A DNA stretch of 64,000 bases from NCBI RefSeq assembly GCF_037975245.1, contig NC_092578.1, positions 9,466,359 through 9,530,358 on the forward strand, written 5' to 3'. This stretch comes from Apostichopus japonicus (lineage: Eukaryota; Echinodermata; Holothuroidea; Aspidochirotida; Stichopodidae). How positions within the stretch are numbered: the first letter of the stretch is position 1; the number at the start of each line of letters is the position of its first letter. Below the pieces are notes generated by a model. That model was not told where the DNA came from, made no database searches, and saw nothing but the letters and a program-made list of their open reading frames with translations. A program made the translations under genes and the position numbers. Shown here one piece after another: positions 20,957-43,393 of the stretch.

Positions 20957-21100
20957 GCTCGTGAATGGGAGCCGAGAGAAATTGCATATGCCGACGATAT
21001 TTTACGTCGTCATTGCGGGGTATTGGGATAAGTTTTCAATTAGCAATAATCGCGTCTCGGATAAACCTCATTGACTACGATATCGCCTCTGCGCAAAGAT
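20957..21100 (-). ncRNA. U4 snRNA copy 1, diverged, weak Sm site
   Basis: A 144-nt U4-like gene with the conserved 5' stem-loop, the U6-pairing segment GATTATTGCTAATTG and the ATACCCCGC block. It differs from the other copies in two ways. The Sm site reads AATTTCTC instead of AATTTTTC, breaking the U run. The 3' terminal hairpin has another sequence, GCTC/GAGC with an 8-nt loop, but still pairs. It may be an old pseudogene or a variant. Confidence 0.75.
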
Positions 21101-21562: not shown

Positions 21563-21706
21563 GCCCATCTATGTGAGCCGAGAAAAATTGCATATGCCGA
21601 CGATATTTCACGTCGTCATTGCGGGGTATTGGGATAAGTTTTCAATTAGCAATAATCGCGTCTCGGATAAACCTCATTGACTACGATATCGCCTCTGCGC
21701 AAAGAT
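21563..21706 (-). ncRNA. U4 snRNA copy 2, intact
   Basis: U4 base-pairs with U6 in the U4/U6 di-snRNP of the spliceosome. On the minus strand from 21706 the gene reads ATCTTTGCGCAG, then the 5' stem-loop with GTCAATGAGGTTTATCCGAG, the U6-pairing GATTATTGCTAATTGAAAAC, CCCAATACCCCGC, a central hairpin GACGA/TCGTC, the Sm site AATTTTTC and a terminal hairpin GCTCA/TGGGC. Total 144 nt, the usual animal U4 length. It keeps the shared array upstream region, where a Pol II snRNA promoter should lie, so it is a candidate functional copy. Confidence 0.95.
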
Positions 21707-22368: not shown

Positions 22369-22482
22369 ACTGTGATTATAAGGTAATGCACAGTCACAGT
22401 CCCGATGAAGGGGGCCCTCGGTTGAAAGCGGATCAGTCGTTCGGTAGTTTGGTTTTCGTGCCCAGGTTCTTTCCTGGGCGAC
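22369..22482 (+). ncRNA. SL-like RNA candidate, copy A (stem II changed)
   Basis: First of twelve 114-bp blocks. Stem I pairs ACTGTGATTA with TAATGCACAGT (one bulged G), and its 5-nt loop TAAGG holds the donor-like AAG|GTAAT. A U-rich GGTTTTCG precedes a terminal hairpin GCCCAGG/CCTGGGC, then gacttttt. A TATA-like tatagattatat lies about 30 bp upstream. In this copy stem II (CAGTCCC) has lost most of its partner: gatgaagggggccctcgg replaces gatgcaaggggactgggg. The layout resembles spliced-leader RNAs, but the Sm site is not canonical. It could instead be part of a retroposon, because its 3' part recurs in the U4 insertions. Confidence 0.35.
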
Positions 22483-23250
22483 TTTTTCTTCAAAAGTATT
22501 GACAGTTCTATTTCTCTTTATTCTAGTTGAAACCCCCATCTCAATATCTTGTTCCTAACTCAAGATATTTAGTTTGACTAAGTCTTCAACTACCCCAGGA
22601 AGTTGCATCACAGTATAGCGAGTCTATGATGTCATCTGGGCAAATGCTCATCAATAGCTTTACTATAGGCTATTATAAACTACTGGCTGATTTATCCTTG
22701 AAACTTAATGCAGTCGGAGTGCTTGCTTATAGCTGTTCTCTGCCCCCCCCCCCCCCCTCTCTCTCTCTCTCTCTTCTCTGTGTACTTAAATTTTCATTTT
22801 TCTGTATTTATAATTTAATTTAAAAAAATGTACCGTTTTGTAGAAATAATCTTTTCCAAATATAAATGATAATAAATGATTAAGAAATAATATAGCAACA
22901 TAAAGACATTTTTAGCCGAAATACCCTAAGGTCATCATCCATTCTGCTGTTGTCAGATGCATGTACAAAATATCACAAACGTTGAAAAATATCATATCTT
23001 GTGGATACAAAATGCTATGACGGTATGGTCTTCTCGCTAAGATACTGAACATTTTCAGCAGTTTTTTGCTAAGCAGTCAACTTTAGCTACCAGAATATCC
23101 CTTTGAATGTTCATTTCTCATAGAACGCTTCAGAAATACCAGGCAGTAAGCTACAAGAAGCACTTCACCATTAACGTTTAAGTTCTAGTCGTGAGCTCCA
23201 GTATTCACTAATCACCTTGTGAACTTCTTATTAGTTTGAGATTGATATAA

Positions 23251-23590
23251 GCCCATCTATGTGAGCCGAGAAAAATTGCATATGCCGACGATATTTCACG
23301 TCGTCATTGCGGGGTATTGGGATAAGTTTTCAATTAGCAATAATCGCGTCTCGGATACTTTTTAAGAAAAAGTCACCCAGGAAAGAACCTGGGCACGAAA
23401 ACCAAACTACCAAACGACTGATCCGCTCTCAGCCCCAGTCCCCTTGCATCGGGACTGTGACTGTGTGATCATCGTCAGGTGTGTATCACCATTCCCGAAG
23501 GGAACAGATACTACACATGATCTTAGCCAAAAGGCCGAGAAGCGTCTCGGATAAACCTCATTGACTACGATATCGCCTCTGCGCAAAGAT
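23251..23590 (-). pseudogene. U4 copy 3, interrupted by full-length U2-headed insertion
   Basis: U4 nt 1-49 (23590-23542) and the remainder (23356-23251) are separated by 185 bp plus an 11-bp duplication of ATCCGAGACGC. The break falls in the 5' stem-loop, next to the U6-pairing region, so a mature U4 cannot form from this copy. Confidence 0.93.
23357..23541 (-). mobile_element. U2-headed retroposon, most complete copy
   Basis: Read on the minus strand the insert with its target site starts CGCTTCTCGGCCTTTTGGC, then TAAGATCATGTGTAGTATCTGTTC. This matches U2 snRNA from nt 3 to about nt 43 with one change, including the branch-site-pairing GTAGTA. Then come a TTCCC/GGGAA hairpin, an unassigned ~40-nt segment, and about 105 nt nearly the same as the 3' part of the plus-strand SL-like block (CAGTCCC stem, GGTTTTCG, GCCCAGG hairpin, gactttttctt). 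An 11-bp ATCCGAGACGC duplication flanks it, as for LINE-mobilised RNAs. SINEs with U1/U2 heads (SINEU) are known; membership is inference. Confidence 0.85.
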
Positions 23591-24258
23591 ACTCATTAAG
23601 TCCTTAGAATTGTTTGAGTACTTCGTTGAGAGTTTGTTTTTCATAGCAGATACAGTTTATACCAGTTAGCCTTCTTTTCGATGCTAAGTAAAATAATTTA
23701 TTCTGAAAAACGAATAACTTACGTGTTTTTAGTACGCAATATGAAAAAAATAACGGATGGAGAATGACGAAAGTGGTATATACAGGATCAATGTCAATTA
23801 ACCCTCGTCAATGTCGCGATCCTATAAGCTCATGAATATTCATTGCAGGATCTCCAAGCACACTCTTAATCAACGGATGGCGTTATTATATCGGTCCTGT
23901 CTAGTTCCGCGAAACTTGACAAGCTCAAGTCTCCGAAATCACTGAAAATTACTTTGAATTACTTTGAAGTACCTGCACATTCCCTAATTAGTAAACAGTG
24001 TGACATATTCGAACTTATTTACGTCTTCTACTACTCATAACTAAATCTCTGTAGCAACGAATGTTGCCCACCGGAACCGTTAGGACACATATGACAGCGC
24101 CCTCTTCCCATACGCTTAAGATCCTCATTATCCATACCTCGATAGGAGATATCAGTATGAAATGTATACTGCTTTGTGAAGGATATATGCGTAGGAAAGG
24201 TGCCCTTTTTCATGGATATGCACTTTCTGTATAGATTATATCCTTGCAATTAAGCTGA

Positions 24259-24372
24259 ACTGTGATTATAAGGTAATGCACAGTCACAGTCCCGATGAAG
24301 GGGGCCCTCGGTTGAAAGCGGATCAGTCGTTCGGTAGTTTGGTTTTCGTGCCCAGGTTCTTTCCTGGGCGAC
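24259..24372 (+). ncRNA. SL-like RNA candidate, copy B (stem II changed)
   Basis: Same block as copy A with the same altered stem II. Stem I, the donor-like loop and the terminal hairpin are unchanged. Confidence 0.33.
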
Positions 24373-25140: not shown

Positions 25141-25284
25141 GCCCATCTATGTGAGCCGAGAAAAATTGCATATGCCGACGATATTTCACGTCGTCATTGC
25201 GGGGTATTGGGATAAGTTTTCAATTAGCAATAATCGCGTCTCGGATAAACCTCATTGACTACGATATCGCCTCTGCGCAAAGAT
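25141..25284 (-). ncRNA. U4 snRNA copy 4, intact
   Basis: Whole 144-nt gene, same as copy 2 through the Sm site and terminal hairpin, followed upstream (higher coordinates) by the array's tactcattaagtcc promoter-side sequence. Candidate functional copy. Confidence 0.95.
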
Positions 25285-26829: not shown

Positions 26830-26973
26830 GCCCATCTATGTGAGCCGAGAAAAATTGCATATGCCGACGATATTTCACGTCGTCATTGCGGGGTATTGGG
26901 ATAAGTTTTCAATTAGCAATAATCGCGTCTCGGATAAACCTCATTGACTACGATATCGCCTCTGCGCAAAGAT
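26830..26973 (-). ncRNA. U4 snRNA copy 5, intact
   Basis: Whole 144-nt gene with the canonical array sequence and the tactcattaagtcc upstream variant. Candidate functional copy. Confidence 0.95.
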
Positions 26974-28523: not shown

Positions 28524-28844
28524 GCCCATCTATGTGAGCCGAGAAAAATTGCATATGCCGACGATATTTCACGTCGTCATTGCGGGGTATTGGGATAAGT
28601 TTTCAATTAGCAATAATCGCGTCTCGGATACTTTTTAAGAAAAAGTCACCCAGGAAAGAACCTGGGCACGAAAGCCAAACTACCAAACGACTGATCCGCT
28701 CTCAGCCCCAGTCCCCTTGCATCGGGACTGTGACTGTGTGATTATCGTCAGGTGTGTATCACCATTCCCGAAGGGAACAGATACTACACATGATCGCGTC
28801 TCGGATAAACCTCATTGACTACGATATCGCCTCTGCGCAAAGAT
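28524..28844 (-). pseudogene. U4 copy 6, interrupted
   Basis: Same insertion point and 11-bp duplication as copy 3, but 321 bp in total because the insert lacks 19 nt of its U2 head. The upstream side reads tacccatttagtcc instead of tactcattaagtcc, a variant linked to the short insertion. Confidence 0.93.
28630..28795 (-). mobile_element. U2-headed insert, 19-nt-deleted form
   Basis: 166 bp, the same as 23357-23541 except that TTCTCGGCCTTTTGGCTAA is missing, so the U2 part now starts at GATCATGTGTAG. The SL-like tail is intact. Confidence 0.88.
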
Positions 28845-30391: not shown

Positions 30392-30535
30392 GCCCATCTA
30401 TGTGAGCCGAGAAAAATTGCATATGCCGACGATATTTCACGTCGTCATTGCGGGGTATTGGGATAAGTTTTCAATTAGCAATAATCGCGTCTCGGATAAA
30501 CCTCATTGACTACGATATCGCCTCTGCGCAAAGAT
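30392..30535 (-). ncRNA. U4 snRNA copy 7, intact
   Basis: Whole 144-nt gene between interrupted copies 6 and 8, with the tactcattaagtcc upstream variant. It is the last whole copy before the run of six interrupted units. Candidate functional copy. Confidence 0.95.
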
Positions 30536-32087: not shown

Positions 32088-32408
32088 GCCCATCTATGTG
32101 AGCCGAGAAAAATTGCATATGCCGACGATATTTCACGTCGTCATTGCGGGGTATTGGGATAAGTTTTCAATTAGCAATAATCGCGTCTCGGATACTTTTT
32201 AAGAAAAAGTCACCCAGGAAAGAACCTGGGCACGAAAGCCAAACTACCAAACGACTGATCCGCTCTCAGCCCCAGTCCCCTTGCATCGGGACTGTGACTG
32301 TGTGATTATCGTCAGGTGTGTATCACCATTCCCGAAGGGAACAGATACTACACATGATCGCGTCTCGGATAAACCTCATTGACTACGATATCGCCTCTGC
32401 GCAAAGAT
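32088..32408 (-). pseudogene. U4 copy 8, interrupted
   Basis: First of six consecutive interrupted copies. Short-form insertion at nt 49 with the tacccatttagtcc upstream variant. Confidence 0.93.
32194..32359 (-). mobile_element. U2-headed insert, 19-nt-deleted form
   Basis: Same 166-bp form as in U4 copy 6, carrying tgattatcgtcagg (plus strand) where copies 9, 11, 12 and 13 have tgatcatcgtcagg. Confidence 0.88.
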
Positions 32409-33948: not shown

Positions 33949-34269
33949 GCCCATCTATGTGAGCCGAGAAAAATTGCATATGCCGACGATATTTCACGTC
34001 GTCATTGCGGGGTATTGGGATAAGTTTTCAATTAGCAATAATCGCGTCTCGGATACTTTTTAAGAAAAAGTCACCCAGGAAAGAACCTGGGCACGAAAGC
34101 CAAACTACCAAACGACTGATCCGCTCTCAGCCCCAGTCCCCTTGCATCGGGACTGTGACTGTGTGATCATCGTCAGGTGTGTATCACCATTCCCGAAGGG
34201 AACAGATACTACACATGATCGCGTCTCGGATAAACCTCATTGACTACGATATCGCCTCTGCGCAAAGAT
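33949..34269 (-). pseudogene. U4 copy 9, interrupted
   Basis: Short-form insertion at nt 49. Belongs to the homogenised 1.86-kb sub-array. Confidence 0.93.
34055..34220 (-). mobile_element. U2-headed insert, 19-nt-deleted form
   Basis: 166-bp form with the tgatcatcgtc variant, alternating with copies 8 and 10 (tgattatcgtc). The alternation suggests amplification in two-unit blocks. Confidence 0.88.
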
Positions 34270-35812: not shown

Positions 35813-36133
35813 GCCCATCTATGTGAGCCGAGAAAAATTGCATATGCCGACGATATTTCACGTCGTCATTGCGGGGTATTGGGATAAGTTTTCAATTAGC
35901 AATAATCGCGTCTCGGATACTTTTTAAGAAAAAGTCACCCAGGAAAGAACCTGGGCACGAAAGCCAAACTACCAAACGACTGATCCGCTCTCAGCCCCAG
36001 TCCCCTTGCATCGGGACTGTGACTGTGTGATTATCGTCAGGTGTGTATCACCATTCCCGAAGGGAACAGATACTACACATGATCGCGTCTCGGATAAACC
36101 TCATTGACTACGATATCGCCTCTGCGCAAAGAT
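35813..36133 (-). pseudogene. U4 copy 10, interrupted
   Basis: Short-form insertion. The neighbouring spacer carries gttgaaatatatcatatcttttaga, also found in the unit left of copy 8, another sign of two-unit periodicity. Confidence 0.93.
35919..36084 (-). mobile_element. U2-headed insert, 19-nt-deleted form
   Basis: 166-bp form with tgattatcgtc, like copies 6 and 8. Confidence 0.88.
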
Positions 36134-37673: not shown

Positions 37674-37994
37674 GCCCATCTATGTGAGCCGAGAAAAATT
37701 GCATATGCCGACGATATTTCACGTCGTCATTGCGGGGTATTGGGATAAGTTTTCAATTAGCAATAATCGCGTCTCGGATACTTTTTAAGAAAAAGTCACC
37801 CAGGAAAGAACCTGGGCACGAAAGCCAAACTACCAAACGACTGATCCGCTCTCAGCCCCAGTCCCCTTGCATCGGGACTGTGACTGTGTGATCATCGTCA
37901 GGTGTGTATCACCATTCCCGAAGGGAACAGATACTACACATGATCGCGTCTCGGATAAACCTCATTGACTACGATATCGCCTCTGCGCAAAGAT
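37674..37994 (-). pseudogene. U4 copy 11, interrupted
   Basis: Short-form insertion at nt 49, tgatcatcgtc variant. Confidence 0.93.
37780..37945 (-). mobile_element. U2-headed insert, 19-nt-deleted form
   Basis: 166-bp form; terminal-hairpin loop ttcttt as in the SL-like blocks. Confidence 0.88.
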
Positions 37995-39532: not shown

Positions 39533-39853
39533 GCCCATCTATGTGAGCCGAGAAAAATTGCATATGCCGACGATATTTCACGTCGTCATTGCGGGGTATT
39601 GGGATAAGTTTTCAATTAGCAATAATCGCGTCTCGGATACTTTTTAAGAAAAAGTCACCCAGGAATGAACCTGGGCACGAAAGCCAAACTACCAAACGAC
39701 TGATCCGCTCTCAGCCCCAGTCCCCTTGCATCGGGACTGTGACTGTGTGATCATCGTCAGGTGTGTATCACCATTCCCGAAGGGAACAGATACTACACAT
39801 GATCGCGTCTCGGATAAACCTCATTGACTACGATATCGCCTCTGCGCAAAGAT
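39533..39853 (-). pseudogene. U4 copy 12, interrupted
   Basis: Short-form insertion at nt 49; shares a private change in the insert with copy 13. Confidence 0.93.
39639..39804 (-). mobile_element. U2-headed insert, loop variant
   Basis: 166-bp form whose terminal-hairpin loop reads ttcatt (plus strand ggaatgaacc). Only this copy and the next have it, marking a recent duplication of adjacent units. Confidence 0.88.
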
Positions 39854-41391: not shown

Positions 41392-41712
41392 GCCCATCTA
41401 TGTGAGCCGAGAAAAATTGCATATGCCGACGATATTTCACGTCGTCATTGCGGGGTATTGGGATAAGTTTTCAATTAGCAATAATCGCGTCTCGGATACT
41501 TTTTAAGAAAAAGTCACCCAGGAATGAACCTGGGCACGAAAGCCAAACTACCAAACGACTGATCCGCTCTCAGCCCCAGTCCCCTTGCATCGGGACTGTG
41601 ACTGTGTGATCATCGTCAGGTGTGTATCACCATTCCCGAAGGGAACAGATACTACACATGATCGCGTCTCGGATAAACCTCATTGACTACGATATCGCCT
41701 CTGCGCAAAGAT
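41392..41712 (-). pseudogene. U4 copy 13, interrupted
   Basis: Last interrupted copy. Its 3' flank reads gagctacggtattcactaatcac, unlike the tatgcattaatcac of its neighbours, so it is a patchwork of sub-types. Confidence 0.93.
41498..41663 (-). mobile_element. U2-headed insert, loop variant
   Basis: 166-bp form with the same ttcatt loop change as copy 12. Confidence 0.88.
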
Positions 41713-43249: not shown

Positions 43250-43393
43250 GCCCATCTATGTGAGCCGAGAAAAATTGCATATGCCGACGATATTTCACGT
43301 CGTCATTGCGGGGTATTGGGATAAGTTTTCAATTAGCAATAATCGCGTCTCGGATAAACCTCATTGACTACGATATCGCCTCTGCGCAAAGAT
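43250..43393 (-). ncRNA. U4 snRNA copy 14, intact, at the array edge
   Basis: Whole 144-nt U4. Array identity stops exactly at its 5' nucleotide (43393). The upstream sequence is gttgtgttctgcattgac rather than the actcattaagtcc of other copies, so it has lost or replaced the array promoter. It is divergent from PYM1, whose ATG is 260 bp away. It may be a promoterless copy, or the founder copy with its own promoter. Confidence 0.93.

Follow-up and report, generated by a model that had tools for sequence, protein, structure and literature searches.

SINEU elements, SINEs with heads derived from U1 or U2 snRNA, were reportedly described from crocodilians by Kojima in 2015, and mammals have U6/snRNA-LINE chimeric retrogenes that are ascribed to template switching. 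How snRNA-headed SINEs come to be transcribed is a question, since the promoters of snRNA genes are external to the transcript. SINEU is given as a SINE class in Repbase (PMC5753468), and SINEU (Kojima 2015) is cited in PMC8010984. U2 genes are also the targets of two autonomous kinds of element, Keno, a Tx1-type LINE, and Utopia, which has a restriction-like endonuclease, and both have the same U2 3' junction (PMC4640811).

The element described here is, like SINEU, a short non-coding retroposon with the start of an snRNA as its 5' head, and more than one snRNA is likewise used. This likeness is one of head and description. By its head, the SINE would belong to the snRNA-headed class, with source-like U2 genes and an apparent exchange of its head for that of U4 as variant features. 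Whereas SINEU is known from crocodilians, the present host has a mitochondrial code of the echinoderm type, and its genome holds both source-like insertions in U2 genes and a U4 head. A search of the available literature found nothing on echinoderm snRNA-headed SINEs. The genetic code (code 9) was read from COX1 on the mitochondrial contig C35, which has AAA where Asn is conserved, AGA at positions of Ser, and ATA at those of Ile, and it points to an echinoderm; pieces of COX1 also occur on a second contig, at G000:C29:14745-31219, possibly as a rearranged mitochondrial or nuclear copy. The U6/snRNA-LINE retrogenes similarly have snRNA 5' sequence joined to another retroposed RNA, but they are ascribed to template switching, whereas the heads in this genome would be explained by DNA-level insertions at the fusion points.

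U4 genes split by a U2-headed insert

The window, the whole stretch of 64,000 nucleotides analysed here (G000:C18:9466359-9530358), carries on its minus strand an array of U4 snRNA genes recognised by Rfam. Five are intact and identical, a sixth has 7 differences, and eight are split. An empty repeat unit measures ~1,690 bp and a filled one 1,860-1,890 bp. A DNA search of the 671.6-Mb, 35-contig assembly with U4, in which 15 of 15 candidates were scored, returned only this array and one place on contig C15. All 14 U4 genes found in the assembly thus lie in the window, with 8 of them split by this SINE, and gaps could conceal more. The features of the array are as follows.

20958..21100, minus strand: unsplit U4 with 7 differences from the other five (Rfam)
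21564..21706, minus strand: intact U4, its 600 nt upstream 1 substitution from split unit F (Rfam, upstream comparison)
22389..22499, plus strand: older 5'-truncated SINE copy in the spacer (111 bp, 90%; blastn)
23252..23590, minus strand: split U4, type F, with full-length SINE insert (Rfam U4 1-138 across the split gene; both halves match intact U4 at 100%)
23346..23356, minus strand: right duplication copy ATCCGAGACGC (U4 nt 39-49), U4 continuing to 23252 (sequence)
23357..23501, minus strand: SINE body with 3' hairpin ACTTTTT-CTT-AAAAAGT at its end (among the fetched loci, 16 copies including this one share one identical 188-nt sequence; predicted fold of the whole SINE RNA, z = -4.3)
23502..23544, minus strand: SINE head, U2 nt 3-45 (identical to U2 genes of the C16 array; Rfam U2)
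23542..23590, minus strand: U4 nt 1-49, of which nt 39-49 (23542-23552) are the left duplication copy (sequence)
23591..23740, minus strand: intact upstream (promoter) region of the type F split U4 (150 nt compared with intact unit 25142, 2 mismatches)
25142..25284, minus strand: intact U4 (Rfam)
26831..26973, minus strand: intact U4 (Rfam)
28525..28844, minus strand: split U4, type D, with 19 nt of the SINE head missing and U4 identity to nt 52 (Rfam, blastn, unit comparison)
30393..30535, minus strand: intact U4 (Rfam)
32089..32408, minus strand: split U4, type D
33950..34269, minus strand: split U4, type D
35814..36133, minus strand: split U4, type D
37675..37994, minus strand: split U4, type D
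39534..39853, minus strand: split U4, type D
41393..41712, minus strand: split U4, type D
43251..43393, minus strand: intact U4 at the array edge; the common upstream region is missing right from nt 1 (84/150 upstream mismatches)

The first-pass annotation had described one U4 gene split by a 185-bp insert. We confirmed that a complete U4 gene at 23252-23590 (minus strand) is split by a U2-headed element together with a duplication of U4 sequence; the insert is present, but its size is corrected to about 188-190 bp, and seven further U4 genes of the window hold the SINE at the same site. In Rfam the split U4 fell at 23252-23402 and a partial match to U2 (47.7 bits, E=2.1e-6) at 23463-23546, both on the minus strand. 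The element itself runs from 23544 to 23357 (188 nt) and consists of a 43-nt head, U2 nt 3-45, which is identical to the host genome's own U2 genes, and a 145-nt body. U4 is interrupted at nt 38/39 and picks up again at nt 39 (23356). The last CGC of the direct repeat also corresponds to U2 nt 3-5, so that the duplication amounts to 8 bp if CGC is counted with the element and to 11 bp if it is counted with U4. Thus, an 11-bp repeat separate from the element, as originally proposed, is right in that the repeat is U4 sequence, but three of its letters are common to the element.

The seven other split units have 4 mismatches in 150 nt upstream relative to the intact unit at 25142. The region upstream of the U4 gene at 43251-43393 gave no match to the common upstream region of the array, and because unrelated sequence lies directly upstream of its nt 1, the array promoter is probably absent there. 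The spacer of the repeat unit holds a second, older, 5'-truncated SINE copy on the plus strand, which the first-pass annotation did not include; it recurs at 24279, 25973, 27664, 29525, 31226, 33089, 34950, 36814, 38675, 40534, and 42393, in the orientation opposite to that of the SINEs inside the split U4 genes.

The eight split genes apparently arose from two insertions at the same nucleotide, type D being the second. This reading follows from the type D junction (ATCCGAGACGCGAT|CATGTG), where U4 identity reaches nt 52 as expected of a separate 5'-truncated insertion, and from the type F unit being nearer to an empty unit than to the type D units (1 vs 13 substitutions in 600 nt upstream); the upstream regions of the type D units are identical to one another. 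Both types do have the same nick and the same SINE subfamily, with SINEs only 1-2 bases apart, and tandem arrays convert readily. A single insertion (type F), from which a 19-bp deletion produced type D while gene conversion left the units mosaic, is therefore conceivable, but the junction and the upstream substitutions make it rather unlikely, and we retain the reading of two insertions.

A dispersed family of U2-headed copies

A 48-nt core of the SINE, searched with ≤3 mismatches, had 1,095 matches in the genome and 0 with the reversed control, while its exact tail had 518 (control, 6). These pattern matches, together with at least 55 matches among the best-scored candidates with E down to 3e-174, exclude chance. 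Most dispersed copies read are flanked by exact target duplications of 5-26 bp. Copies of this kind, 188-190 bp long, non-coding, numerous, dispersed, and bounded by variable target-site duplications, have the properties of a SINE, and their head, U2 nt 1/3-45 identical to host U2 genes (Rfam U2), is of the SINEU kind. The insert belongs to a young SINE family whose dispersed copies are nearly identical, and it was probably moved by target-primed reverse transcription. The first-pass annotation had proposed a U2-headed, LINE-mobilised retroposon within a U4 gene, and had left it to a genome search with the insert to distinguish a SINE family from a one-off chimera; the many copies with varied target duplications support the former. 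Its supposition that the U2 start is contiguous with the rest of the element was also borne out, as the same body follows the U2 start in 191 exact-matching copies.

Among the matches listed, most copies start ATCGCTTC, which is U2 nt 1, and the left flanks mostly end AT|CGCTTC, again placing the start at U2 nt 1. Among 100 matches listed, the junction of head and body falls at U2 nt 45 in 74 and at nt 46-52 in the other 26, with CCTTCGGG as the commonest junction type (38/100). At the other end, AAAAAGT closes a perfect 7-bp hairpin, ACUUUUU-CUU-AAAAAGU. U2 3' readthrough was considered as a source of the terminal GT, but it is unneeded, as this GT is base-paired within the terminal hairpin and dispersed copies have it too. 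Rfam returned no match when an origin of the SINE body was sought. In 80 right flanks, positions +1 to +4 favour A (91%), T (61%), C (49%), and T (51%), a preference near U2 nt 38-41, ATCT, whose U4 counterpart is ATCC; indeed, the U4 site GTTT|ATCCG resembles the U2 site TAGT|ATCTG.

Several loci hold more than one copy. Chains of SINEs, several with different 5' truncations, occur at C2:21947347-21949240 (L022) and on C11 (L027), C5 (L010), and C16 (L014), and their copies are separated by the target duplication alone, the same nick having seemingly been reused. At five further loci (L065-L069), a SINE has inserted at the U2 site of another SINE's U2-derived head, which means that the element brings its target with it. 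A single SINE at C5:22383088-22383877 (L017) lacks a direct duplication, its flanks forming a 14-bp inverted repeat, CTAGCACGACTTAA...TTAAGTCGTGCTAG.

SINE-bearing U2 genes and a U4-headed copy

A search with U2 found a 160-kb array of 645-bp tandem units on contig C16. In the sampled parts of this array, 29 of 43 U2 5' ends were intact, 4 carried the SINE, and 10 had other insertions, mainly LINEs. The SINE-bearing genes read U2 nt 1-45, SINE body, AAAAA, and then U2 from nt 36. At this 3' junction (...CTTAAAAA|GTATCTGTTC) U2 nt 36-45 is repeated, GTATCTGTTC being the target duplication, and whole SINE units are in register with the U2 genes. Truncated SINE insertions in the array have a longer duplication, 18 nt in one case, and the junction classes of the dispersed copies (U2 nt 45 and nt 46-52) agree with this range. 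The tail joined to U2 nt 36-50 has eight exact matches: the array accounts for six, and the other two lie in an old U2 copy (C20) and in the head of a SINE (C5). A further five near matches represent SINEs that entered another SINE's U2 head. For a family of about a thousand copies in a 671-Mb genome, the presence of so many at one short U2 sequence would not be random. A SINE in a U2 gene has U2 as its left flank, the same sequence as the dispersed head, and the head may thus be explained as the left flank of the U2 target.

Three U2 genes with the SINE (L059) have 400 nt of upstream sequence identical to that of intact neighbours. The array copies bear the private marks ATCTGATCCCTTAGGG and CCCTCGGG, and two array copies were also matched among dispersed copies: that at 31132509 is identical over 188 nt to copies at C17:2.40 Mb and C9:27.7 Mb, and that at 31133952, whose junction type CCCTCGGG is rare (1/100 of the matches listed), to a copy at C2:21.95 Mb. 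No copy with the commonest junction, CCTTCGGG, was found in the C16 array as assembled, so that the source of the window subfamily is missing from the assembly, was lost, or lies elsewhere. It could be that the C16 copies are recipients instead of sources. The search for a PSE motif common to the U2 and U4 upstream regions gave only a 7-nt match, which was disregarded.

LINEs are found at the U2 site of the SINE as well. Both LINE A (L060) and LINE B (L061) are inserted in U2 genes of the C16 array, with their junction at U2 nt 36-38, and have open frames for a zinc-knuckle ORF1 and for an ORF2 with APE endonuclease and reverse transcriptase (PF03372, PF00078, PF00098). These features fit Keno, which has APE and reverse transcriptase as well, and both Keno and Utopia integrate in the same U2 region (PMC4640811). 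One U2 array houses two or more families of Keno-like LINEs whose frames are open; LINE B deletes U2 nt 31-37 and LINE A duplicates nt 36-50. Keno and Utopia are autonomous and LINE A stays in U2 (17 of 19 matches to its tail fall in the array region), whereas the SINE is non-coding and mostly outside U2. The SINE tail had no significant likeness to the tails of LINE A or LINE B (P = 0.54 and 0.24); AAAAGT alone is common to the 3' ends of the SINE and LINE A, which is not significant, and there was no significant match to LINE B. Given the confinement of LINE A to the U2 array, the location of most SINE copies outside it, and the dissimilar tails, a Keno-like LINE would be no more than a candidate partner.

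The one place outside the window with U4 sequence, C15:3479668-3479718, consists of U4 nt 4-54 (96%); next come 14 nt of filler, in which TCCGAGAC occurs, and the SINE, starting at U2 nt 19. The whole is flanked by ATAATTTATTTGAACCA and ATAATTTAATTGAACCA, a 17-bp duplication with one mismatch, and belongs to an older subfamily than the window insert. It is the only U4-headed dispersed copy found. No dispersed copy with the window's own U4/SINE junction was found by pattern search or among all 15 scored candidates of the U4 search. A copy with a U4 head and its own duplication implies that a U4 gene once gave rise to a transcript that began near U4 nt 1, included the SINE within the gene, and was retroposed. 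Of the present findings, this copy would speak most directly for launch from an snRNA gene, the transcript being deduced from its structure.

A proposed cycle through snRNA genes and its rivals

We think it likely that this is a SINE of the SINEU type for which U2 genes, and now and then U4 genes, serve as launch sites, an insert in an snRNA gene borrowing its promoter. What can be read directly from the genome are the insertions with their duplications, the sites in U2 and U4, the undisturbed upstream regions, the identical pairs of source-like and dispersed copies, and the U4-headed copy. In the proposed cycle, SINE RNA would first enter a U2 gene at AGT|ATCTGTTC, the site of the Keno-like LINEs in the same array. 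The copy behind the U2 promoter would then give a transcript that starts at U2 nt 1 and covers U2 nt 1-45 (or 1-50) before it enters the body of the SINE, so that the left flank of the target becomes the head. Reverse transcription from the 3' hairpin end (AAAAAGU) into sites favouring A-T-C/T-T would yield promoterless dispersed copies. Because U4 has a related site (GTTT|ATCCG), the SINE would land there too, in the window apparently twice at one nucleotide, and array turnover would have spread one of the two to seven units. Finally, a SINE inside a U4 gene could be relaunched with a U4 head. Transcription from U2 and U4 promoters, movement from the array to dispersed sites, and use of a Keno-like LINE are the steps we infer.

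Template switching could also join these sequences, the reverse transcriptase jumping from SINE RNA to U2 or U4 snRNA and the array copies being dead ends. Chimeric snRNA retrocopies arise this way in mammals, and the U4-headed copy on C15 does contain a junction filler of 14 nt. However, the breakpoints (U2 nt 45 and 46-52; U4 nt 49, 52, and 54) fall within the span that is duplicated by DNA insertions at the U2 and U4 sites, and genomic loci with exactly this fusion and an intact upstream region exist that are identical to dispersed copies. We consider template switching improbable as the origin of the heads.

Less probable still is a SINE of the ordinary kind, driven by an internal RNA polymerase III promoter in its U2 head, of which any full-length copy could be a source. 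U2 genes need an external Pol II promoter, Rfam found no tRNA, 5S, or 7SL match in the element, as would mark a Pol III-type head, and its T-runs (TTTT twice, and TTTTT upstream of the 3' end) would halt Pol III. Most SINEs are nevertheless transcribed by Pol III (PMC10886601). The head also holds TGGCTAAG, which by eye is loosely A box-like. That the split units yield a functional U4/U2 hybrid RNA with a regulatory role is scarcely credible despite their intact upstream regions, the amplification of type D to seven units, and the strong folding of the SINE RNA, given that the split falls inside the conserved 5' half of U4 and that tandem units are often amplified, which may happen without any effect on fitness.

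Returning to launch from snRNA genes, the analysis goes beyond the first-pass annotation with 8 of 14 U4 genes affected, U2 genes that bear the SINE and resemble sources, and a putative U4-headed progeny copy. We lean towards the view that a SINE without a promoter of its own survives only by re-entering snRNA genes, each landing creating a launch site and giving the SINE the 5' end of that gene as a new head, by insertion and not by template switching. As candidate source genes, identical dispersed copies, and a change of head from U2 to U4 occur in one genome, the question of how such SINEs are transcribed becomes directly testable. Spliceosomal RNA genes may thus serve a retroposon as both targets and launch sites, in a genome where more than half of the detected U4 genes are disrupted.
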